Shown: piece after piece, positions 5,065 through 21,441 of the stretch
Position numbering within the stretch: the stretch's first letter is position 1
Layout of the letters: each line of letters begins with the position of its first letter
Assembly: GCA_000153445.1 (NCBI GenBank)
Contig: CH672396.1
Coordinates: 281,668-345,667 of the forward strand
Length of the DNA stretch: 64,000 nucleotides
Origin: a gamma proteobacterium HTCC2207
GTDB lineage: Bacteria > Pseudomonadota > Gammaproteobacteria > Pseudomonadales > Porticoccaceae
Direction: 5' to 3'
Translations under genes and position numbers: made by a program
Notes under the pieces: generated by a model
Told to the model about the DNA's origin: nothing
Databases searched by the model: none
What the model saw: only the letters and a program-made list of their open reading frames with translations

Positions 5065-5376
5065 ATCCTTTCCTCCGCAAGTAATCGGCTAACCAGTCTC
5101 AGTTATATAACACCGTTTCTTCAATCCCTAACTGATTGGTTTGTGTCAGTGTGCGGAAAGAATAAGGAGAACGCTTTTAATAGGACTGTCTCAGTATTCC
5201 GCAATTTATTTGCCCCAAGATAAAATTTTTTAACCGGGGAAAACGAAACCTGGTCAAGGTTTTTTCAAAATTACTCAATTTAAAAAACGCTACATCATAT
5301 TTCTATTATAGTTAAGCCACTCTAATTACGACTAACGGGAATACCGAGGACTATCCCAAACAAGGAGCACAAAAAA
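5065..5376. other. AT-rich gap without a recognisable gene
   Basis: This 312-bp gap holds no convincing coding frame. It is markedly AT-rich from about 5215 onward, matching the AT-rich gene that follows. It ends in a strong AAGGAG ribosome site at 5362-5367 for that gene. A TATTATAG stretch near 5304-5311 could be a -10 element, but I see no paired -35, so no promoter is claimed. Confidence 0.6.
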
Positions 5377-8744: not shown

Positions 8745-11438
8745 TTATCCGATTTGTTTGGCTAAAAACTGACTGGAGGTTTGAACCTGCTTGATTAGAC
8801 TGCTCAGTTCAGGAATGCAGGAACCGCAGTTGGTGCCGCATTGAAGTTGTTTGCCGAGCTGCTCAGTTGAGTCGGCACCGGTTTCAATGGCGGAGATAAT
8901 ATGTTCTTCGCTGACTTTAAAGCAGGAGCAGATAAGCTTGCCGCCACTATCCGCTAGCGACAGATCCGGTCCCGATAGCAGTCGCCAATAATTCTCTGGG
9001 GCGCGGTTATTTAGTAGATCTTGCATCCAGGCTTTGTTCGGCAGTGAGGGTTTTTGACGATGGCTAAAAAGTGCTATTTCCATCTGTTGATCGCTGTATC
9101 CGATAAGCCGCTGGTCAAAATTGGCAGCATCCGAGAACTGCGCATAGGCTGTGGCACCGGTTACTTTGCTCGCATAGTGCTGCCAGTTAAATTCGGCGCT
9201 GACCGCCACTTGATAGATAAAGCCCAGCTGTCGAGGCAGTGCTGCGGAGGTCCAGTTAATAAATTCTGAGCAATCCAGCGCAGTGCGACTTACCAGTGTT
9301 GCCCAACAGGGGCTTTCAATTTTCTTTAGTGCGGCGCGACTGAACTTAGATTCTGGTTGGCCAGAGACAGGGTCGATGATCGCTTCAAAGAGTGTCGCGA
9401 CTCGTGCGCTGTGCGCGTTCTGATTGCTCCAGTGAATGGGGACAAATAGTTGCTCAGGTTTTACCCCCAGATCTATCAGGCTGATCACCTGAATTACGCC
9501 TTGGGGGGTTGAAACTTCTGCCAAATCGCCGTTTTGCAAATCTGCCGCAGCAGCAGTGTCTGGGTGCATGGCGACAAAGGGCTGGTCCGTATGGTCGAGC
9601 AAGGATGCGGCGCGTCCGGTGCGGGTCATGGTGTGCCACTGGTCGCGAATACGTCCACTGTTGAGGGCTAATGGGTATCGCCTCTGGGACTTGCGTTTCG
9701 CAGGCAAACGCGGAGTGATGGCAATAAATCGCGCACGACCGCTTGGCGTGACAAATTGCCCGTCTTCAAATAGCCGCGTCGTGCCCTGGGGACGATTGGT
9801 AGTCACGGGCCATTGAATAGGCTGTAGAGAGTCATAGTGGGTTTCGGATAGCTGGCTGAGGGCGCCAATATTAAACAGGCGTTGCCCTTGATTTTGGTAG
9901 TCACTGAGTTGCGCATGTTCGACAAACACATCCCGCGGTGACTGATAGTTAAAGCCGTCGCTAAAGCCCATGGCCTTGGCCACCTGCGCCAGTATCCACC
10001 AGTCGGCCCGAGCTTCTCCCGCGGCGCTAACCAGTGCTCGCTGGCGCGAGATACGCCGCTCGGAGTTAGTGACAGTGCCAGATTTCTCACCCCAGCCAGC
10101 GGCGGGCAGAAGGATATTGGCCGTGGCGGTGGTGTCGGTTTCGGCAATACAGTCTGAGACAATCACTGTTTCACAGTGCTCTAGTGCCGCTTTGACTCGG
10201 TCTGCATTGGGCATACTCACTACCGGATTGGTGCCCATAATCCAGATCGCTTTAATACTGCCATCTGCCACGGCATCAAACAGATCAACCGCTTTTAATC
10301 CGGCTTTCTTGCTGACCTTATCGCTATTCCAAAATGCCGATACAGTGGCGACATTCTCGGTGGTGTAATCCATGTGGGCAGCGAGCATATTAGCTAGGCC
10401 GCCCACCTCGCGCCCCCCCATGGCATTGGGCTGACCGGTAATCGAAAAGGGCCCAGCACCGAGCTTGCCAATGCGCCCTGTGGCAAGGTGACAGTTGATA
10501 ATGGCATTGCATTTATCCGTGCCAGTTGCGGACTGATTAATACCCATTGAATAGAATGTAATGCTCTTTTCGGTCTCGACAAACCACTGATAAAAAGTAG
10601 CCAACTCTTCCCTGCTGATCCCAGTCTGCTGTTCGAGCTCAGCCTGACTGATGGCGCTTGCTGTCTCTAGTGCAGCCGCAAAGCCCTCGGTGTGCTGCTC
10701 GATATAGTGTCTGTCGAGCTGGTCGGCTCTGTCTAAAAAGGCGAGTAAACCATTAAAGATAAAGGCATCGGCCCCAGGGGCTACTGCCAGATGCAGATCA
10801 GCCAGATCACAGCTTGCAGTGCGCCGTGGATCTATCACCACCACGCGCATGGCAGGATTTTTTTGCTTGGCCGCGGCTATTCGCCGATAAAGCACCGGAT
10901 GGGTCCAGGCGGCATTGGAGCCGGTTAGCACTAGCAGTTCGCAGTGCTCGAGGTCTTCATAGTTACAGGGCACGGCATCGGCACCAAAGGCGCGCTTATA
11001 GCCGGCCACTGCCGAGGACATGCACAGGCGTGAGTTGGTATCCACGTGGCCAGTGCCGATGAAGCCTTTAGCCAGTTTGTTGGCCACATAGTAGTCTTCT
11101 GTGAGCAGCTGCCCTGAGAGATAAAAGGCGATGGCCTCGGGACCATATTTCTCGCGGACCTGATTGAGCCTGCAGGCCACCTCCTCAATGGCCCTATCCC
11201 AACTTACCGGATGACCCTCAATACTGGGCTGCAGCAGCCGACCATGGTTACCCATGGTCTGATCCAATGCTGCGCCTTTGACGCAGAGCTTACCCAGATT
11301 GGCTGGATGCTCGGTATCACCTGAGACGGCAATTAGCTGATCATTTTTGATTTCAGCACTCACACCACAGCCTACACCGCAGTAGGGGCAGGTGGTTTTA
11401 ACGGTGCATGAGTCTCTGGTTTCAGTGGCGTGGCTCAT
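8745..11438 (-). CDS. nasA: Assimilatory nitrate reductase, molybdopterin catalytic subunit
   Basis: Cytosolic molybdoenzyme of 897 residues reducing nitrate to nitrite. The N-terminal [4Fe-4S] ligands are Cys17, Cys20, Cys24 and Cys52. The molybdopterin oxidoreductase core follows (LCMSSAVAGYKRAFG; GANPxx-type IMGTNPVVSMPN; QPNAMGGREVGG), then the dinucleotide-binding domain with LNSGRIRDQWHTMTRTGRA. The C-terminus carries a BFD-type [2Fe-2S] domain (ICSCFKVSEE and CGTNCGSCIPEL), typical of assimilatory enzymes that accept electrons from a flavoprotein or ferredoxin. No separate NasB-like reductase is encoded nearby. It starts 3 bp after nirD. Confidence 0.97.
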   Translation of the reverse strand: MSHATETRDSCTVKTTCPYCGVGCGVSAEIKNDQLIAVSGDTEHPANLGKLCVKGAALDQTMGNHGRLLQPSIEGHPVSWDRAIEEVACRLNQVREKYGPEAIAFYLSGQLLTEDYYVANKLAKGFIGTGHVDTNSRLCMSSAVAGYKRAFGADAVPCNYEDLEHCELLVLTGSNAAWTHPVLYRRIAAAKQKNPAMRVVVIDPRRTASCDLADLHLAVAPGADAFIFNGLLAFLDRADQLDRHYIEQHTEGFAAALETASAISQAELEQQTGISREELATFYQWFVETEKSITFYSMGINQSATGTDKCNAIINCHLATGRIGKLGAGPFSITGQPNAMGGREVGGLANMLAAHMDYTTENVATVSAFWNSDKVSKKAGLKAVDLFDAVADGSIKAIWIMGTNPVVSMPNADRVKAALEHCETVIVSDCIAETDTTATANILLPAAGWGEKSGTVTNSERRISRQRALVSAAGEARADWWILAQVAKAMGFSDGFNYQSPRDVFVEHAQLSDYQNQGQRLFNIGALSQLSETHYDSLQPIQWPVTTNRPQGTTRLFEDGQFVTPSGRARFIAITPRLPAKRKSQRRYPLALNSGRIRDQWHTMTRTGRAASLLDHTDQPFVAMHPDTAAAADLQNGDLAEVSTPQGVIQVISLIDLGVKPEQLFVPIHWSNQNAHSARVATLFEAIIDPVSGQPESKFSRAALKKIESPCWATLVSRTALDCSEFINWTSAALPRQLGFIYQVAVSAEFNWQHYASKVTGATAYAQFSDAANFDQRLIGYSDQQMEIALFSHRQKPSLPNKAWMQDLLNNRAPENYWRLLSGPDLSLADSGGKLICSCFKVSEEHIISAIETGADSTEQLGKQLQCGTNCGSCIPELSSLIKQVQTSSQFLAKQIG

Positions 11439-11441
11439 AGA

Positions 11442-11795
11442 TTACAGGCACAACATAACGTGGTCGCCGAACAGACTAACCGGGAATACTGGCACCGAGA
11501 TCTCGGCCTCTTCCAAGCATTCCCCGGTGAGCAGATCAAAGTGCTGCTTATACATAGGTGAGGCCACCACCAGTCGTCCGTCGAGATCCCCCACCATTCC
11601 CCGGGACAAGATATTGGCTTTACCAATGGGGTCCCAGTTGCCCAGCGCATAGAGTTGCGGGCTTTCATTGGGTAGATAAAACAGGGCAATTTGCTCCCCA
11701 TCCAATTCCGCACAGATACCGGAGTTGGGAATCAAATCTCCTTGCATACAGAGATTGATAGGCTGTGATTCTGCTACTAGTACGTCAGTGCTCAC
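11442..11795 (-). CDS. nirD: Nitrite reductase [NAD(P)H] small subunit
   Basis: A 117-residue Rieske-fold partner of NirB. The fold is recognisable from YALGNWDPIGKANILSRG and VASPMYKQHFDLLTGECLE. The Cys-X-His and Cys-XX-His ligands of a true Rieske cluster are replaced (GNWD, MYKQ), as is normal for NirD, so it should not bind iron-sulphur. The start is GTG with AGGAG eight bases upstream; no suitable ATG is present. It lies between nirB (12 bp upstream) and nasA (3 bp downstream) in one transcript. Confidence 0.95.
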   Translation of the reverse strand: MSTDVLVAESQPINLCMQGDLIPNSGICAELDGEQIALFYLPNESPQLYALGNWDPIGKANILSRGMVGDLDGRLVVASPMYKQHFDLLTGECLEEAEISVPVFPVSLFGDHVMLCL

Positions 11796-11806
11796 TATGG
11801 TTTCTC

Positions 11807-14332
11807 CTAAGCGGATTCGGCTAAAAGTTGTTTGCGTTCGGCATCGGTGGCCGGTCGCGGCTGGCCCCGCTCTTCGACAAAGATAATCTCCCGATCTTCG
11901 GCTTTGGAGTTGACAAACTGGCGGAAGCGTTTGAGTTTCTCCGGGTCTTCAACGGTGGTTTTCCACTCGCACTGATAGCTGCCGACAATGCTTTCCATCT
12001 GCTCTTCCAGTTCGCCGGCGATTCCCAGTGAGTCTTCGATTACCACTTGCTTGAGATAGTCGAGCCCGCCTTCAAGGGTGCCCATCCATACCGAGGTGCG
12101 CTGAAGGCGGTCGGCAGTGCGCACATAAAACATCAGGAAGCGGTCGATATATTTGATCAGGGTTTCGTCGTCGAGATCCGTGGCAAAAAGATCTGCGTGT
12201 CGCGGTTTCATACCGCCATTGCCACCGACAAATAGGTTCCAGCCATTTTCCGTGGCGATCACACCAAAGTCTTTCGACTGGGCCTCGGCACATTCACGGG
12301 TGCAGCCGGAGACTGCAGATTTGAGTTTGTGTGGGGAGCGCAGGCCTTTATAACGGTTCTCTATATACAGGGCCATGGCGACACTGTCTTGCACACCGTA
12401 ACGACACCAGGTGCTACCAACACATGACTTTACTGTGCGCAGGGCTTTGCCGTAGGCATGACCGGTTTCAAAGCCAGCGGCGATAAGCTCTTCCCAGATG
12501 CCAGGCAGATGCTGCACTCGGGCACCAAACAGGTCGATGCGCTGTCCGCCGGTAATCTTGGTGTAAAGGTTATATTTCTTGGCGACCTGACCGATGGTAA
12601 TCAATTTATCTGGGGTGATTTCACCGCCGGCTATACGCGGCACCACTGAGTAGGTGCCGTTTTTTTGCATATTGGCGAGAAAGGTATCGTTAGTGTCCTG
12701 CAGGCCCACATGCTTTTCTTCCAGCACATAGTCATTCCACAGGGACGCGAGAATGGAACCGGCGGTGGGTTTACAGATATCACAGCCGCGTCCGCTGCCG
12801 TGTTTACTAATTAGCTCTTCAAAGCTTTTGATCGACTCCACCTTAACTATATGAAACATTTCTTGGCGGGTCAGGTTGAAGTGCTCGCACATGGCTTTAT
12901 TGACTTCGAGACCGCGGGAGGCGAGTTCATCATCGACAACGCTCTTCAGCAGTGCCGCGCAGCCACCACAGCCGCTGCTAGCGGCGGTCTCGCTTTTGAC
13001 TTCAGCGAGGGAGCAGAAACCGGCGTCCATTGCGTTAACTATGTCGCCTTTACTGACATTGTGGCAGGAGCAGATGGTGGCGGTGGCCGGCAGTGCGGCG
13101 GCTCCCAGTGCTGGTGCGGCGCCCGCATTGTAAGGCAGGATTAGCGTTTGGGGGTCGGCGGGTAAGGCTATACCATTGAGGAAGTACTGGAGCAAGGTAT
13201 CGTAGTCGGAACAGTCGCCGACCAATACCGCGCCCAATAGCTTTTTGCCATCGGCGCTGACAATCAGGCGCTTATAGACATCAATGCGCTCGTCGCTAAA
13301 GGTGTAGGCCACGGACCCAGCTTCTTTGCCATGGGCGTCGCCAATGGAGCCAACATCGACCCCAAGCAGTTTCAACTTTGTGCTCATATCCGCGCCCTGA
13401 AAGGGCACCACTTCATTGGTTAGCTGACTCACCGCGGCCTCGGCCATGCGGTAACCTGGTGCCACTAGGCCATAGATTCGGCCGCCAAATAGGGCGCACT
13501 CACCAATAGCAAAAATATCCGAATCGCTGGTTTTGCAGTGGTAGTCAATCTCAATACCACCGCGCTCGCCGACAGTTAAACCGCAGTCTTTGGCCAGCTG
13601 ATCATAGGGACGAATACCGGCAGAGAAGACAATCATATCGGTGGCCAGGGAACTGCCATCGGCAAACTGCATTCGCAGACGGGCCTCGCCCTCAGCATCG
13701 GGTTCAATCACCTTAGTGGCTTTGCTTGTGTGGACTGTGACCCCTAGGGCTTCGATCTTGCGCCGCAGCATGGCGCTGCCGCCGCCATCGAGCTGCACGC
13801 CCATGAGGCCGGGAGCGAACTCCACAACATGGGTTTCGAGGCCGAGGTTTTTAACCGCGTTGGCGCACTCTAGGCCCAGTAAGCCGCCGCCCACCACTAC
13901 CCCGATCTTGCCGCCTGTGGCCTGAGCCTGAATAGTGCCCAGGTCGTCAATGGTGCGGTACACCGTACAAGGTTCAAGATCATTGCCTTTAACCGGTGGT
14001 ACAAAGGGATAGGAGCCAGTGGCCAAAACCAGTTTGTCATAGGCAAACTGCTTGCCGCTCTCGGTGGTCAGGGTTTTAGTGTCGCGATCAATGCTGGCGA
14101 CCATATCGCCAAAATGGGCCTCGACACCGAGCTCGCGGTAGTGATCTCTGGTGGTTAGGGCGAGATCTTCAGGACTGCGTCCGGCAAAGAATTCCGACAG
14201 ATGAACACGGTCATAGGCGGGGCGCGTTTCACCGCCAATCACGGTAATCTGGGCCTCGACGTCGCTTGCCACCAGCTGCTCTACATAGTGATGACCGACC
14301 ATGCCATTTCCGACTACTACTACTTTTAACAT
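11807..14332 (-). CDS. nirB: Nitrite reductase [NAD(P)H] large subunit
   Basis: Cytosolic siroheme enzyme of 841 residues reducing nitrite to ammonium. Domains in order are: FAD/NAD oxidoreductase (VVVGNGMVGHHYVEQL at the N-terminus; second nucleotide loop GVVGGGLLGLECA); a BFD-like [2Fe-2S] domain (ICSCHNVSKG and SGCGGCAALL); a ferredoxin-like half-domain (TITGGQRIDLFG); and the siroheme/[4Fe-4S] domain with GSTWCRYG and VSGCTRECAEAQSKDFGV providing four Cys. AAGGAAAAGAG precedes the ATG. It follows the transporter genes by about 46 bp, so uptake and reduction are probably one operon. Confidence 0.98.
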   Translation of the reverse strand: MLKVVVVGNGMVGHHYVEQLVASDVEAQITVIGGETRPAYDRVHLSEFFAGRSPEDLALTTRDHYRELGVEAHFGDMVASIDRDTKTLTTESGKQFAYDKLVLATGSYPFVPPVKGNDLEPCTVYRTIDDLGTIQAQATGGKIGVVVGGGLLGLECANAVKNLGLETHVVEFAPGLMGVQLDGGGSAMLRRKIEALGVTVHTSKATKVIEPDAEGEARLRMQFADGSSLATDMIVFSAGIRPYDQLAKDCGLTVGERGGIEIDYHCKTSDSDIFAIGECALFGGRIYGLVAPGYRMAEAAVSQLTNEVVPFQGADMSTKLKLLGVDVGSIGDAHGKEAGSVAYTFSDERIDVYKRLIVSADGKKLLGAVLVGDCSDYDTLLQYFLNGIALPADPQTLILPYNAGAAPALGAAALPATATICSCHNVSKGDIVNAMDAGFCSLAEVKSETAASSGCGGCAALLKSVVDDELASRGLEVNKAMCEHFNLTRQEMFHIVKVESIKSFEELISKHGSGRGCDICKPTAGSILASLWNDYVLEEKHVGLQDTNDTFLANMQKNGTYSVVPRIAGGEITPDKLITIGQVAKKYNLYTKITGGQRIDLFGARVQHLPGIWEELIAAGFETGHAYGKALRTVKSCVGSTWCRYGVQDSVAMALYIENRYKGLRSPHKLKSAVSGCTRECAEAQSKDFGVIATENGWNLFVGGNGGMKPRHADLFATDLDDETLIKYIDRFLMFYVRTADRLQRTSVWMGTLEGGLDYLKQVVIEDSLGIAGELEEQMESIVGSYQCEWKTTVEDPEKLKRFRQFVNSKAEDREIIFVEERGQPRPATDAERKQLLAESA

Positions 14333-16424: not shown

Positions 16425-17825
16425 TCAAAGAACCTCATCTTTTAAGCCAATGGAAAATTTCTTCAGGTAGGCATTGGGTTGAGTACCGTCATAGACGACT
16501 TCGTCAATAAACTCTTTCTGCGGTGCGCGGTAGCCCGTTTCACTGGCGAAGGCTGGGAAGTCTGCGTCTGTCATAAGGCCTTCTTCAATCAGCTCTTGCG
16601 CCGCAGTTTTGTAGATATCTGGGCGGTAGACACTGGCGGCAACATCGAAGTACCACTGGTCTGACTTGGGCTCGGAAATCTGTCCCCAGCGACGCATCTG
16701 GGTCAGGTACCAGACGGCATCTGAGTAGAATGGGTAGGTGGCGAAGTAGCGGAAGAACACGTTGAAGTCAGGCACTGAACGCTTGTCGCCCTTTTCATAT
16801 TCGAAGGTGCCGGTCATGCTGTTGGCAATCACATCGTAATCAGCGCCAACATAGTTGCTCTGGGCGAGAATCTTGACCGCTGCCGGACGGTTGGCATTGT
16901 CATTTTCATCTAGCCATTTAGCAGCGCGAATAAGAGCCTTAACAACACGGGCAGTGGTATTGGGGTACTTCTCTGTAAACTCCTTGGTCATACCAAAGAC
17001 TTTCTCTGGGTTATTCTTCCAGATTTCATAGTCGGTGATCACTGGCACACCAATGCCTTTAAAGACTGCCTGTTGATTCCATGGCTCACCGACGCAGTAG
17101 CCGTGAATAGTACCGGCCTCAAGGGTAGATGGCATCTGTGGTGGTGGGGTTACCGACAGTAGCGCCTGTGCATTTAAGGTGCCGCTGGAGTCGCCTTTAT
17201 GTGGGGCGTAATAGCCTGGGTGAATGTCACCTGCAGCCAGCCAATAGCGCAGCTCATAGTTGTGGGTAGAGACTGGGAACACCATACCCATTTTGAATTG
17301 CTTGCCTTCGGCAGTGAACTTATCTACTACCGGTTTCATATAATCAGCTTTGATGGGGTGCACTGGCTTGCCATCGTTAATCGGTACGTACTCCTTCATC
17401 TGCTCCCAGATATCGTTGGAGACAGTGATCGCATTCCCGTTTAGATCCATACTGAAAGGCGTCACTATATGGGCTTTGGTACCGTAGCCAATGGTTGCAG
17501 CCAGGGGCTGGCCGGCGAGCATATGGGCGCCGTCTAATTTGCCGTCAATAACGCCGTCGAGGAGCACTTTCCAATTGGCTTGGGCTTCGATGGTGACGTA
17601 GAGCCCCTCGTCTTCGAAGTAGCCATTCTCATAGGCTACTGCGATGGGGGCCATATCCGTGAGCTTGATAAAACCAAAGCGCAGCTCGTCTTTTTCCGGC
17701 TCGCCGAGTTCTGCCATGGCCGCACTGCCATTAACCAATAAAGCCAGTGTTAGGCCTATTTTTAGTCTGCTGAAAAGTCGATCTGTGAACTTATGTTTCT
17801 TAGGGGACTGCATGGGGGACTGCAT
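16425..17825 (-). CDS. nrtA: Nitrate/nitrite ABC transporter substrate-binding protein
   Basis: Exported nitrate-binding protein of 466 residues. A basic N-terminus and hydrophobic core ([16 protein letters not shown]) end at a likely signal-peptidase site before ELGEPEK. The mature part has the NrtA landmarks [51 protein letters not shown] and [14 protein letters not shown]. No lipobox Cys is seen, so it is probably periplasmic. The start region is a 12-bp tandem duplication encoding MQSPMQSP. I chose the first ATG, with AAAGG just upstream, but the second at 17813 is possible. An antitermination leader precedes it. Confidence 0.95.
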
Positions 17826-17856: not shown

Positions 17857-17930
17857 AAAAAAAAGCCCGCCTATCTAGGTCTTCACGCCTTTTCGGGCGT
17901 GCTAACTTCAACAGGCGGGCATCGTTACCC
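17857..17930 (-). promoter_or_regulatory. NasT-type (ANTAR) antitermination leader of the nitrate operon
   Basis: On the minus strand, 5' of nrtA, a small hairpin GGGT-AACGAT-GCCC (17917-17930) has a six-base loop with A at position 1 and G at position 4. This is the rule for ANTAR-protein target hairpins. Its 3' strand GCCC is also the start of the 5' arm GCCCGCCT (17913-17920) of a terminator. The 3' arm is AGGCGGGC (17865-17872), followed by T residues. A smaller hairpin CACGCC/GGCGTG (17884-17901) sits in the terminator loop. Forming the first hairpin should block the terminator. NasT, encoded just upstream, is the obvious ligand. An upstream hairpin around 17936-17957 may be the first of the usual pair, but its loop does not clearly fit. 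Confidence 0.85.
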
Positions 17931-17999
17931 TGAGAACCACATCGGAGATGGGATCTGAGATTGTTTACTGCTTGTGTTCTTTCACTACCAAAAACATAT

Positions 18000-18015
18000 T
18001 CAATATCTGTGCCAG
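18000..18015 (-). promoter_or_regulatory. Candidate sigma-54 (-24/-12) promoter of the nitrate operon
   Basis: The minus-strand sequence CTGGCACAGATATTGA matches the -24 box TGGCAC perfectly and the -12 box TTGC in three of four bases (TTGA), with the GG and GA dinucleotides ten bases apart. Transcription would begin near 17989, leaving a ~165-base leader that contains the antitermination element. The non-consensus -12 base is the weak point. Confidence 0.5.
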
Positions 18016-18180: not shown

Positions 18181-19398
18181 CTAGTTGGTCTGTAATGGCG
18201 CATCGATACCCAGCATCAGGTCGCTGCCCAGTTCAATACGTTCATTGAGCATCCATGGCTTTTCGTGGACCCCCTCGAGTTTGTAATCCTGATCTGGATA
18301 ATCGAGTCCAGATCTGGATGCCGCTTCGCGGTAAAGGTCTGTTCTAAAGCACTGCTGTGCCAGTGCCGCAAGCTTGTCTTTGTCTAGGGCTTTGCCTAAC
18401 AGTGGTGCGAATTGTTCGAGTATATACTCGGCTTGGGAGCGCCAGGGGAAGCCCGCGCTATAGCTGGAAAAGACATGGAAGTTGGACTGGCTTAGAGGGT
18501 TGTCCTCGCGCTTTTGCACAATTTGCCCGGTCAGTGATGGACGTAAATAATCGGCGGGTAAATCCAGATACTCAGGACGCGAGAGTATCGCCACAGCCTC
18601 TCTGCGATTGTCCATATTCCCTAGCCATTCACAGGCCGCCATTAGTGCCAGGCGCAGGCGCAGATGGGTGGATGGGTTGCGACTGTGCCAGGACTCCAAA
18701 ACACCGAGCACTTTTTCTGGGGCGTTATTCCATATTTCGAAACCGGTGGTAGCCATAATTCCAGCGCCATATTCCACGGCAATACTGTTCCAGGGTGCGC
18801 CAACACAGAAACCGTCAATAACGCCTTGGGCTAAGCTGTCCACCATTTGTTCTGGTGGCAGCACTATAATCCGCACGTCGCGGTCTGGATCTATACCGCC
18901 GGCGCGCAACCATTTGCGCAGCAGTAATGTATGACTGGAAAAGGAGTGTACGGTGGCAAAGGTCAGGGGATTGCCGGGATTTTGGTCCATCAGTGTCTTC
19001 AGTGCCGTGGCCGTGGCCAAGGCATCATGTGCCGCTTGGCTGGGGTCGGCAACCAGTCTCATCTTGTTCCACAGTGCCGAGGAGACAGTAATAGCATTGC
19101 CATTGAGGGATAACATCAATCCGGTAATTATGGGTGCGCGAATCCCTGCCGCACCCAATGTGGTAATCAGCGGCATGGGTGCCAACATCTGACTGGCATC
19201 CAGTGTCCCAGCAATCGTCTTGTCGCGGATATTGGCCCAGGAGACTTCGCGCTGGAGGCTGACTTTAAGGCCATACTCTTCATAGAGTCCGAGGGCCTGG
19301 GCGACGATGATCGGCGCGCTATCGCTAAGGCGCATATAGCCTATATTGAGTTCTTCCTGCTCTGGTGCTGGTAGCTGTTTGTTCAGTTTAATTATCAT
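18181..19398 (-). CDS. nasS: Nitrate sensor NasS (cytosolic NrtA paralogue)
   Basis: A 405-residue paralogue of the nitrate-binding protein ([64 protein letters not shown]) but without any signal peptide, so it stays in the cytosol. In NasS-NasT systems, NasS holds NasT inactive and frees it when nitrate or nitrite binds. The ATG at 19398 overlaps nasT by 11 bases; a GTG at 19407 is an alternative. Tight overlap with nasT supports stoichiometric synthesis of the two partners. Confidence 0.93.
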   Translation of the reverse strand: MIIKLNKQLPAPEQEELNIGYMRLSDSAPIIVAQALGLYEEYGLKVSLQREVSWANIRDKTIAGTLDASQMLAPMPLITTLGAAGIRAPIITGLMLSLNGNAITVSSALWNKMRLVADPSQAAHDALATATALKTLMDQNPGNPLTFATVHSFSSHTLLLRKWLRAGGIDPDRDVRIIVLPPEQMVDSLAQGVIDGFCVGAPWNSIAVEYGAGIMATTGFEIWNNAPEKVLGVLESWHSRNPSTHLRLRLALMAACEWLGNMDNRREAVAILSRPEYLDLPADYLRPSLTGQIVQKREDNPLSQSNFHVFSSYSAGFPWRSQAEYILEQFAPLLGKALDKDKLAALAQQCFRTDLYREAASRSGLDYPDQDYKLEGVHEKPWMLNERIELGSDLMLGIDAPLQTN

Positions 19399-20011
19399 GA
19401 TTGCCACTATTTTTTTTGTTTTGGCTGAGGATTTTTATCACAGACTCAGCTGCTTGGGGCAGACTTTGGTTGGTGTCCATGGATAGCGTGCGCAGCAGCT
19501 TGTGAGCCTTGTCTTCACTGACACTGTGCTGTTGCATAAGTAAGCTTTTCGCCCGGTCTATCACTGACAGGCTCTCTAGTTGGGTGCGGGTGCTGTCGAG
19601 TGCCTGGCGCAGGGCTTGAAAGGATTTAAACTGAGCCATGGCAACATCGATTACCGGTTTCACGCGTTCGGCCTCCACCCCACCGACCATATAAGCGGTG
19701 ACCCCGGCGTCCACGGCCTCTTCAATATAGCTGGGATCTTCCTCTTCGGAAAACATCACCACGGGGGTCGGATTATGGATATTGATCACTGACAGGCTTT
19801 CGAGCATATCGCGACCTGGAGACTGAAGATCGATAAGAATAACGTCGGGCTTTTGCTGCTCAATCTGGAATAGTAAGCCGGCGGCTGACGGTAATCTGGC
19901 GATAACATCAAAGCCGTCGCCAGTGAGTTTTTCGGCGACACGAACTGAACGTTGGGGGACGTCATCCACCAACATCACTCGCACTATATTGTTTTGCGTC
20001 GCTGCTGACAT
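19388..20011 (-). CDS. nasT: ANTAR-domain antiterminator NasT
   Basis: A 207-residue response-regulator-like protein. The N-terminal receiver-type domain (VRVMLVDDVPQRS, VILIDLQSPGRDM, PVVMFSEEED) is followed by a helical linker and a C-terminal ANTAR RNA-binding domain. The ANTAR domain shows RTQLESLSVIDRAKSLLMQQ, then SEDKAHKLLRTLSMDTNQSL. It binds paired hexaloop hairpins in leader RNA and prevents termination. The ATG at 20011 is preferred over an upstream TTG; its ribosome site is weak (AGAGTG). Its targets here are the leaders of nrtA and of the porin, one on each side. Confidence 0.95.
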   Translation of the reverse strand: MSAATQNNIVRVMLVDDVPQRSVRVAEKLTGDGFDVIARLPSAAGLLFQIEQQKPDVILIDLQSPGRDMLESLSVINIHNPTPVVMFSEEEDPSYIEEAVDAGVTAYMVGGVEAERVKPVIDVAMAQFKSFQALRQALDSTRTQLESLSVIDRAKSLLMQQHSVSEDKAHKLLRTLSMDTNQSLPQAAESVIKILSQNKKNSGNHDN

Positions 20012-20038: not shown

Positions 20039-20063
20039 GGGGCGCCGATAATCTCGACGCCCC
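20039..20063 (-). terminator. Hairpin after the porin gene
   Basis: On the minus strand, GGGGCG pairs with CGCCCC across a 13-base loop, followed by TCTTT. It sits 34 bp past the porin stop and just before nasT. The T-run is poor, so this may be a weak terminator or a processing hairpin allowing some readthrough into nasTS. Confidence 0.5.
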
Positions 20064-20096
20064 CAGTGTCGCTACTTTAGGTACTGCTGTTACTGA

Positions 20097-21302
20097 TTAA
20101 AATTTCACATTCAGGGTTAGCCACAGTTTGTCGGTATCGCTAGCATGGCTATCGGCGGAATAACTGGCATATTTAGCCTGTACAGAGGTCTGTTTATTGA
20201 TCTTATAGGTACCCACAATATCCACTTCTGAGCCCAGATCAGCGCCGCTTTTGTCAGCACTAAACTGGTGGTAGAAAATCGCTATAGGAATGCCGCCTAC
20301 TTTACCTGCGACCTTTAAGTAGACATCTTCGAGTCCAGTTCCCGGGGTGCCGAGAAACTTATCCGCCCAACCCTGAAACTTGTGCAGTGTTGCCAGTGGC
20401 GTTTTAAATCCGATGCCGTTGTCAGCACCCAGTAGTTCGTATCCCAGGGCCACCTTGTAGGTTTTTACTGGAACCGTGACCTCGGCCATCATGTAGTCTG
20501 TGTCAAAGGATGCACTGTTATCGCCGTAGTCTGACTGCTTGGCAGCAGTGGCTGCGACCTTAGCTTTACCGAGCGTACCGGTGTAATCAAAACCATAGGT
20601 GCTGGTGGAATTTGACGCACTATTGTCAAAATCTAATAGGTAGGCAAATGCGGTTACCGAATGACCTTTAGCCGGTGTAAAAGACGCCAGCAAACTATGG
20701 GAATCAGAACCCCATTGTTTGGCCTGGCCAGCACTGTCGACCGGGCCGAAGATACGATTAACATTCCAGATATAGCTGTAGTCGATTTTCACCGAGTTAA
20801 CATCTGGCAGAGTTAGTCTCAAGGCATCGAATGTCTGTTCGTTCTGCCTCCAGCCCACACCGCCAACAAAACGTTGCCCGCCGTGAAGAATTCGTTGTCG
20901 GCCCAAGGTCGCGCTTAAATCTGAGCTCTGATGATGGATATAGGCTTGATTTACATCGGTGCCCTTGGGATCTGCAACTATGGGGTAGCCCGCTTTACCA
21001 TTGGTAGGAGTCTTGTAATTCTCGCCACCTATCACTGTGACATTATCGAACTCCAAAACCGTCTTAAAGTCTTTGTAGGTTGCTGAGGTCCAGGTTAGTC
21101 GTGATTTTAATGTTGAGGCATTGGCCTGCTTATCGATGCCATCCTGGTCTACAGATTCGTAGCGGTAACGAAAGGCGGTGGATGCACTGCCGCCAGTAAA
21201 CATATCGCTCACACTAGAGGCTTCTGCTGCAACGGCTGCGCCTAGTGGTTGCATGCCGATAACGGCCAATGTCAGAGAGGAAAGTAAGCGTTTGTGGTTC
21301 AT
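20097..21302 (-). CDS. Outer-membrane porin (alginate-export/OprD-like beta barrel), probable nitrate-regulated
   Basis: A 401-residue beta-barrel protein. The signal peptide is MNHKRLLSSLTLAVIGMQPL... ending near VAA before EASS. The body alternates aromatic and polar residues typical of porin strands (FRYRYESVDQ, DLSATLGRQRILHGGQRFVGGVGWRQNEQTFDA in shorter pieces) and ends in LWLTLNVKF with a terminal Phe, the outer-membrane assembly signal. The family is the alginate-export-like porins, whose substrates vary. The start at 21302 has AGGA upstream. Its leader carries the same NasT-type element as nrtA, which implies a role in nitrate or nitrite entry. Confidence 0.85.
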   Translation of the reverse strand: MNHKRLLSSLTLAVIGMQPLGAAVAAEASSVSDMFTGGSASTAFRYRYESVDQDGIDKQANASTLKSRLTWTSATYKDFKTVLEFDNVTVIGGENYKTPTNGKAGYPIVADPKGTDVNQAYIHHQSSDLSATLGRQRILHGGQRFVGGVGWRQNEQTFDALRLTLPDVNSVKIDYSYIWNVNRIFGPVDSAGQAKQWGSDSHSLLASFTPAKGHSVTAFAYLLDFDNSASNSTSTYGFDYTGTLGKAKVAATAAKQSDYGDNSASFDTDYMMAEVTVPVKTYKVALGYELLGADNGIGFKTPLATLHKFQGWADKFLGTPGTGLEDVYLKVAGKVGGIPIAIFYHQFSADKSGADLGSEVDIVGTYKINKQTSVQAKYASYSADSHASDTDKLWLTLNVKF

Positions 21303-21333: not shown

Positions 21334-21382
21334 AAAAAAAGCCCGTGCGCAGCATATGAGCTGCGCACGGGCTTCGTTGCCC
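21334..21382 (-). promoter_or_regulatory. NasT-type (ANTAR) antitermination leader of the porin gene
   Basis: Minus-strand leader with hairpin GGGC-AACGAA-GCCC (21369-21382), a six-base loop with A1 and G4. Its 3' strand is part of the 5' arm of a strong 13-bp terminator stem (21360-21372 with 21341-21353, loop of six) followed by seven T residues (21334-21340). The layout and loop sequence copy the nrtA leader (shared GGGYAACGAWGCCCG). A further hairpin ATGTC-TTTGAT-GACAT upstream, with a six-base loop and G at position 4, could be the first ANTAR hairpin. The gene should be expressed only when NasT is free. Confidence 0.85.
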
Positions 21383-21423
21383 AGCAAAATTACAATGTCA
21401 TCAAAGACATGTTGCTAGAAGCA

Positions 21424-21441
21424 ATACAAAAACTATGCCAA
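21424..21441 (-). promoter_or_regulatory. Candidate sigma-54 (-24/-12) promoter of the porin gene
   Basis: The minus-strand sequence TTGGCATAGTTTTTGTAT has the -24 box TGGCA and a -12 box TTGT in place of TTGC, with GG and GT ten bases apart. It would give a leader of about 110 bases carrying the antitermination element. As in the nitrate operon candidate, one -12 base departs from consensus. Confidence 0.42.

Follow-up and report, generated by a model that had tools for sequence, protein, structure and literature searches.

A candidate NasT-responsive antitermination leader precedes an Occ/AlgE-like porin gene in a nitrate assimilation locus of gammaproteobacterium HTCC2207

The window analysed here is a stretch of 64,000 nucleotides from contig CH672396.1 of the gammaproteobacterium HTCC2207. 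On its minus strand, a gene encoding a Pit-type phosphate transporter is followed by a leader, a porin gene, nasT, nasS, a second leader and the genes nrtA, nrtB and nrtC, and then by nirB, a nitrate-reductase-like gene and cobA (nrtC and cobA were named by eye). The product of nasT (19388-20011) carries a receiver and an ANTAR domain (PF00072 and PF03861). It is encoded beside a nasS-like gene (18181-19407; NMT1_2 domain, PF13379, 258 bits), whose product is probably NasS, given its place next to nasT and its lack of an obvious signal peptide. The first gene after the second leader (16425-17825; PF13379, 318 bits) encodes an NrtA-like nitrate-binding protein. The locus therefore has the composition of a NasS-NasT system, in which a protein with receiver and ANTAR domains accompanies an NrtA-like sensor and genes of nitrate use. 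The nitrate reductase scores below the curated cut-offs of the NCBIfam models. The C-terminal residues 834-891 of the nitrate-reductase-like protein (8745-11438) match the NirB model.

The leader located before the porin gene contains, on the minus strand, a P2 hairpin (21369-21382, GGGC-AACGAA-GCCC) whose hexaloop has A at position 1 and G at position 4 (A1/G4). This hairpin is the likely NasT site (E 6e-9 with R1, a covariance model built from the element). It overlaps an intrinsic terminator (21334-21372) made of a 13-bp stem (21341-21372) and a run of seven T (21334-21340). The arms of the terminator, GCCCGTGCGCAGC and GCTGCGCACGGGC, extend from 21372 to 21341 around a loop at 21359-21354. 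The GCCC strand is common to both structures, being the 3' side of P2 and belonging to the 5' arm of the terminator, and the terminator excludes P2. Hence, the leader has two of the features looked for in ANTAR targets: an A1/G4 hexaloop closed by at least 3 bp and the overlap of this hairpin with an intrinsic terminator, on the 5' arm of the latter. A previous sequence-only reading of this DNA had described both the hairpin and the shared strand, and the two were found where it had placed them. Its description of the leader was right for P2, the terminator and T7, and incomplete in that it mentioned neither a hairpin located 5' of P2 (P1) nor a promoter box.

The predicted folding energy of the 102-nt leader is -49 kcal/mol, compared to a mean of -24.4 (sd 3.0) for shuffled sequences (z -8.2). 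Its predicted minimum-energy fold is the terminator, which provides almost all of this stability. When the 3' arm of the terminator is omitted, P2 is present in the predicted fold, and the energy of the shortened leader is ordinary relative to shuffles (z -1.9). No Rfam family matches the leader at its gathering threshold; at E up to 10, 44 weak matches were obtained, the best one being rli56 (29.5 of 47 bits). Furthermore, since a separate terminator-like site (21574-21559) belongs to the phosphate transporter gene, the terminator of the leader is not simply the end of that gene.

Both exclusive folds are supported by covariation in an alignment (A3) of 29 leaders of porin, nrtA and nirB genes. 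The pairing of P2 is held in 95.7% of the cells, a percentage that leans towards structure because the P2 rows came from a scan that demands pairing. Seven cells of P2 are changed on both sides, a number reached in none of 500 shuffles, while two of the five measures, the number of pairs with double changes (32/500) and the number of pair types (197/500), are not outstanding relative to shuffles. The pairing of the terminator is held in 89.4% of the cells. Double-sided changes occur in 103 cells (0/500) and affect 10 of the 12 pairs (12/500), and the covariation of the terminator is far above that of all slid controls. The GCCC strand is constrained by two partners, P2 and the terminator.

The second leader (17858-17931, minus strand; R1 E 8e-6), which precedes nrtA, also includes a P2 hairpin, GGGTAACGATGCCC (17917-17930), and an overlapping terminator (17865-17920). 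Both leaders carry the same 15-mer, GGGYAACGAWGCCCG, which is found in the window at 21368-21382 and 17916-17930 only (two matches, none in 100 shuffles) and at these two sites alone in the whole genome (2,634,266 bases). The two leaders had been proposed to have the same design. This holds for P2, its overlap with the terminator and the shared 15-mer but has to be limited to these, because the terminator of the nrtA leader (17865-17920) consists of an inner hairpin enclosed by an outer stem of 8 bp. A search of the genome with R1 at E <= 0.1 retrieved exactly two sites, the porin and nrtA leaders, and NasT is the sole ANTAR protein found in this genome. A sequence pattern allowing three mismatches was rejected as a definition of the regulon, being too loose (726 places versus 517 for the reversed control).

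Porin homologues were collected from 50 genomes of the genus, of which 23 gave matches, and from a genome collection, in which the best 80 of at least 580 confirmed stretches were considered. From the 102 loci, four duplicates (L001, L002, L004 and L008) and three loci lacking upstream DNA (L015, L024 and L061, two of them nasT-linked) were dropped. The other 95 regions, each including 400 nt upstream and 60 nt of the gene, were scanned for an A1/G4 hexaloop hairpin whose 3' strand falls within a terminator arm. When a stem of 4 bp or more was required, this element was detected before 24 of the 32 nasT-adjacent porins and 2 of the 63 others (Fisher p 1.4e-13; shuffles 13/950). With stems of at least 3 bp, it was detected before 29/32 and 2/63, respectively (Fisher 9.8e-19; shuffles 23/640 and 6/315); both Fisher values treat related species as independent samples, which they are not. 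Three nasT-adjacent porins were missed (L071, L074 and L085). Visual inspection shows GGC-AACGAC-GCC without a recognised terminator in L071, and a loop GAAGAC behind a consensus P1 in L074. Conversely, the 3-bp P2 of L036 may be due to chance, and that of L099 was misplaced by the scan. Of the two positives away from nasT, L092 seems fortuitous and L090 seems genuine. The element is thus conserved before the orthologous porins located next to nasT, as the sequence-only reading demanded. Since 61 of the 63 porins found away from nasT have no detected leader, NasT control does not extend to the entire porin family.

Eleven of the 50 genomes of the genus carry nasT, and the porin gene is directly beside it in all of them. 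Strong R1 matches (E <= 1.1e-5) were obtained in 12 genomes, i.e. these 11 and G017, and six further genomes have weak matches alone (E 0.0018 to 0.09). In G017, the element precedes a porin fragment, yet neither nasT nor any ANTAR match was found in this assembly, which is about 85% complete; the contig stops inside the porin and no gene can be called behind the match. Among 193 relatives searched at E <= 0.001 with stricter filters, 38 genomes match. The genes behind the 40 matches listed outside the genus encode porin (18), NrtA (17), NarB (2), NirB-like proteins (2) and, as named by eye, CobA (1). Eight of these matches fall in five genomes that fed the model; the other 32, some of them in close relatives of model members, precede porin (13), nrtA (14), narB (2), nirB-like (2) and cobA (1) genes.

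Two related genomes have a third leader match, at the loci L177 (G063:C2:317500-321950, match at 321733-321791) and L168 (G110:C135, match at 5312-5370). The gene behind it encodes a NirB-like FAD/[2Fe-2S] oxidoreductase with, by eye, a membrane C-terminus, and is followed in L177 by a gene encoding a multihaem cytochrome c. NasT may thus have this oxidoreductase as an additional target, beyond the assimilation genes.

Promoters dependent on sigma-54 have the consensus GG-N10-GC, i.e. TGGCAC-N5-TTGC. A sigma-54-type box (-24/-12), TGGCATAGTTTTTGTA, agreeing with 9 of 11 consensus positions, precedes the porin leader (21425-21440, minus strand), and a second one, TGGCACAGATATTGAA, precedes the nrtA leader (17999-18014, minus strand). 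In the genus, TGGCAY-N5-TTGTA is found before all 10 aligned porin leaders and TGGCAY-N5-TTGAA before all 11 aligned nrtA leaders; the -12 element is therefore TTGTA or TTGAA rather than TTGC, with GC replaced by GT or GA. Box scores of at least 9 of 11 were obtained for 24 of 31 porin leaders (shuffles 22/1550) and 22 of 24 nrtA leaders (shuffles 12/1200). The porin leaders devoid of this box are L036, L101 and the five members of the Parvibaculum group (L077, L091, L094, L097 and L099).

The hairpin found at the P1 position of the porin leader (21395-21410, minus strand; ATGTC-TTTGAT-GACAT, 5 bp) has a hexaloop, TTTGAT, with G4 but not A1, and departs from the published A1/G4 form of P1. No A1/G4 P1 with a stem of 4 bp or more was found in any of the 10 porin leaders from the genus, whose upstream hairpins have other loops, and a consensus P1 in this genus was rejected after the scan of all leaders. 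Such a P1 was detected in 8/31 porin and 6/24 nrtA leaders overall (shuffles 90/1550 and 75/1200), one of the six, L115, looking like chance; with stems of at least 3 bp, the numbers are 12/31 and 8/24 (shuffles 186/1550 and 126/1200). Both P1 and P2 have A1/G4 loops, as in the published dual motif, in the porin leaders L077, L089, L091, L094, L097, L099, L100 and L101. Only about 16 nt separate the predicted start from P2 in the porin leaders L111-L113; they contain at most GAC-ATTGCA-GTC, which is counted among the 3-bp cases. More generally, the sigma-54-type box is close to P2 in L111-L113 and in the nrtA leaders L025, L027 and L055, leaving about 16-23 nt of RNA before it, and these leaders are natural candidates for single-hexaloop antitermination. 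As given in the accessible part of the 2012 paper, the dual-hairpin definition needs an A1/G4 P1, and the hexaloop of this P1 is needed in the eut leader (PMC3369931). According to the accessible part of a structural paper of 2022, the minimal site consists of one hexaloop, in which G4 alone is contacted in a base-specific manner (PMC8934654). P2 could then act by itself or together with a P1 having G4 only. Leaders without a consensus P1 provide natural material on whether one hexaloop suffices for ANTAR antitermination.

The porin (20097-21302, minus strand; 401 aa) harbors an Alginate_exp domain (PF13372, 38.8 bits), which is found in all 39 aligned members. Its AlphaFold2 model (mean pLDDT 87.6) has 18 predicted strands and corresponds to a predicted barrel of the Alginate_exp/Occ type. 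The nearest solved folds found by Foldseek include OccAB2, OpdO and AlgE (query TM 0.71, 0.67 and 0.64, respectively) and MOMP, with identities of 9-14% among the best 50 matches listed. The protein reaches 38 of 150 bits with the NCBIfam Opr porin model, far below the cut-off. A single-sequence search of the PDB retrieved no relative (best E 0.46), and a profile search retrieved OccAB2/VanP at no better than E 0.086. Conserved arginines were set aside as evidence of anion selectivity, since conservation also extends to many acidic residues.

Among the best 80 loci of the collection, several of which are short contigs, the porin gene is accompanied, within the DNA covered, by nasT in 26 cases, by another nitrate or nitrite gene (at least 40% identity) in 14 and by none of them in 40. 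Nine matches from the genus are distant copies (40-49%) without nasT and, where the upstream region could be scanned, without leader. The nasT-linked porins are clustered on the tree (7 changes versus a shuffled mean of 13.0, 0/500 as low); being spread over it, they were rejected as a single clade. Furthermore, six of 22 records of plasmid homologues were examined, four annotated and two without gene table. By tblastn, nasT, nasS, nirB and nitrate reductase were found on a Novosphingobium plasmid, and nrtA/nrtB-like genes on a Niveispirillum plasmid. On the four annotated plasmids (Blastomonas, Sphingobium, Pseudoalteromonas donghaensis and Catenovulum), the porin gene lies within or beside nitrate/nitrite genes. 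For instance, the Blastomonas plasmid encodes an ANTAR protein, an NrtA-like protein, a transporter, the porin, NirB, NirD, nitrate reductase and CobA, and the Sphingobium plasmid carries nrtABC and the porin gene. In P. donghaensis (L186:5777-5920, 11126-12313), the porin gene heads nirBD-cobA near a gene for a NIT-ANTAR (NasR-type) protein, and the scan detected GGC-AAAGAA-GCC over a 16-bp terminator in its leader. Members of this porin family may thus be under the control of more than one kind of ANTAR protein. Weaker elements were detected before the Blastomonas transporter gene and the Sphingobium nrtA, and none within the stretch scanned from Catenovulum.

Three sister genomes (G013, G030 and G043) have the porin but neither an ANTAR match nor an R1 match. 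They also gave no match to nrtA, in a search carried out without its own positive control, and no close nitrate reductase; that of G013 is a 30% match only, and six other genomes have a match of this kind in addition to the close one. The porin gene adjoins nirB in G013 and G043; in G030, the genes after it encode a formate/nitrite-transporter-like protein, a kinase-like protein and NirB. The leaders of G030 (L119) and G013 (L120) retain the sigma-54-type box, and no hexaloop-terminator element was found in them; this looks like the loss of an RNA switch after the loss of its protein. The contig of G043 begins inside the porin, and its leader is therefore not directly readable. Since the porin of these genomes lies near nirB while nitrate assimilation and NasT are missing, it appears to stay with nitrite assimilation. 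Consequently, the substrate first proposed for the barrel, nitrate, is better given as nitrate and/or nitrite.

The recurrence of the porin gene with nitrate assimilation genes in many relatives suggests that the channel admits nitrate or nitrite, which is the best reading of its genomic context. Alternatively, the porin could belong to the regulon and carry another solute of nitrate growth, for instance an organic anion, as known Occ channels do. The closeness of the predicted fold to those of Occ channels, MOMP and AlgE (at 9-14% identity among the best 50 matches listed) and the lack of a nitrate-gene neighbor, within the DNA covered, for half of the best 80 collection homologues fit this view. 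However, the gene is repeatedly found inside compact nitrate/nitrite operons, in both Alpha- and Gammaproteobacteria, and keeps to the neighborhood of nirB where nrtA and nitrate reductase were not found, and we consider another solute rather unlikely.

The presence of the leader before the porin gene, as initially reported, is clear. The view that it serves the porin alone is amended, since it heads a porin-nasT-nasS unit, whose members are probably co-transcribed; an autoregulation of NasT is therefore possible too. In the window, the 85-nt gap between the porin gene and nasT contains a strong hairpin (20039-20064, minus strand), which has resembling counterparts in relatives from the genus and may damp the transcription of nasT-nasS relative to that of the porin gene. 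NasT may thus boost its own synthesis, with this hairpin as a damper. Accordingly, the leader could have been conserved for the autoregulation of nasT-nasS, the porin being a passenger without any role in nitrate use. The porin gene is indeed the first of porin-nasT-nasS in the family to which the window belongs, and neither the 32 nasT genes scanned nor that of the window have a leader of their own. Moreover, 14-37 nt separate the porin stop from the nasT start (codons included) in five other loci (L036, L042, L056, L071 and L085), and no terminator was found in these stretches. However, the order in the Parvibaculum group is nasT, then leader, porin and nrt genes; on the four annotated plasmids, the porin gene is embedded in nirBD, nrtABC or nitrate reductase operons, and porins remain with nirB in genomes devoid of nasT. 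A passenger role is therefore improbable. An ordinary terminator with a hexaloop arising by chance and unregulated read-through would fit the weight of the terminator in the folding energy and the lack of an Rfam family, but is very hard to reconcile with the A1/G4 hexaloop over a terminator arm in 29/32 loci versus 23/640 shuffles, with the recurrence of the same P2 at nrtA alone within the genome, with the separate terminator-like site of the phosphate transporter gene and with the lack of R1 matches where ANTAR is absent.

Our preferred reading, to which we give a probability of about 0.8, is therefore that of a NasT-responsive antitermination leader before a porin that most likely admits nitrate and/or nitrite at the outer membrane. 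On sequence grounds, NasT very probably controls this leader. Under nitrogen limitation, the putative sigma-54-type promoter would start a short leader RNA. In the absence of nitrate, NasS would hold NasT, by analogy with Paracoccus and Bradyrhizobium, the GCCC strand would join the 13-bp terminator, and transcription would end before the porin gene. In the presence of nitrate or nitrite, free NasT would bind the A1/G4 hexaloop of P2 and keep the GCCC strand from the terminator. Antitermination would then allow the transcription of the porin gene and, wholly or partly, of nasT-nasS. The porin, an Occ/AlgE-like 18-strand barrel, would pass nitrate and/or nitrite across the outer membrane.

This proposal is close to several known systems. 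In the accessible parts of the sources, the NasR/nasF leader of Klebsiella and the EutV/AmiR dual-hexaloop RNAs have the same A1/G4 hairpin sharing a terminator arm, with nitrogen genes downstream (PMC3369931, PMC8934654). They differ from the leader described here, which has a porin gene downstream and, in the family of the window, a P1 without A1/G4 loop. NasS-NasT systems (nasA leader of Paracoccus; nosR and nirA of Bradyrhizobium) also have nasT-nasS beside the regulated genes and a terminator-bearing leader before a nitrate gene (PMC5424462, PMC6759348). As far as the accessible parts of these two papers go, the targets are reductase, transporter and denitrification genes and no porin is named, although an outer-membrane protein, blr1311, is reported to be raised in a nasT mutant (PMC6759348). 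Paracoccus nasTS is described there as a separate transcript, whereas nasT-nasS is located behind the porin gene in the window. The Paracoccus work, in its accessible part, also indicates that nitrate or nitrite dissociates NasS from NasT. More generally, the NasT/NasR leaders described in the accessible literature belong to nas, nir, nos and nap genes, and ANTAR RNAs are located close to nitrogen genes. The Occ/OprD channels, AlgE and Campylobacter MOMP share with the porin an 18-strand barrel, here a predicted one, and the Alginate_exp domain, but not its nitrate-gene context, and their identity with it is 9-14% in the best 50 matches listed. A search of open-licence papers, without their supplements, for NasT, nitrate or nrtA together with porin, outer membrane or alginate export retrieved no nitrate porin. 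The accessible parts of the near matches (PMC4895345, PMC13296017, PMC9238374, PMC7438415, PMC9815089 and PMC10995205) concern no nitrate porin; in one of them, an ammonium-entry porin is proposed in an anammox bacterium (PMC7438415).

A broader view can be put forward tentatively, with doubt prevailing over confidence: a widespread Occ-like subfamily annotated as alginate exporters would be a dedicated nitrate/nitrite porin recruited more than once to ANTAR regulons (NasT here and NIT-ANTAR in Pseudoalteromonas), with NasT leaders having a single consensus hexaloop in this family and a positive feedback, driven by nitrate, through porin-nasT-nasS. Accounts of nitrate assimilation usually start at the inner membrane and proceed inward. 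A porin gene that heads a NasT operon and has its regulatory RNA in common with nrtA would mean that entry through the outer membrane belongs to the regulon. Barrels that are called only alginate export family proteins would also gain a testable substrate. Since this label (PF13372) is used as a marker of self-encapsulation in the accessible part of one study (PMC10995205), some inferences of this kind may have to be reconsidered.
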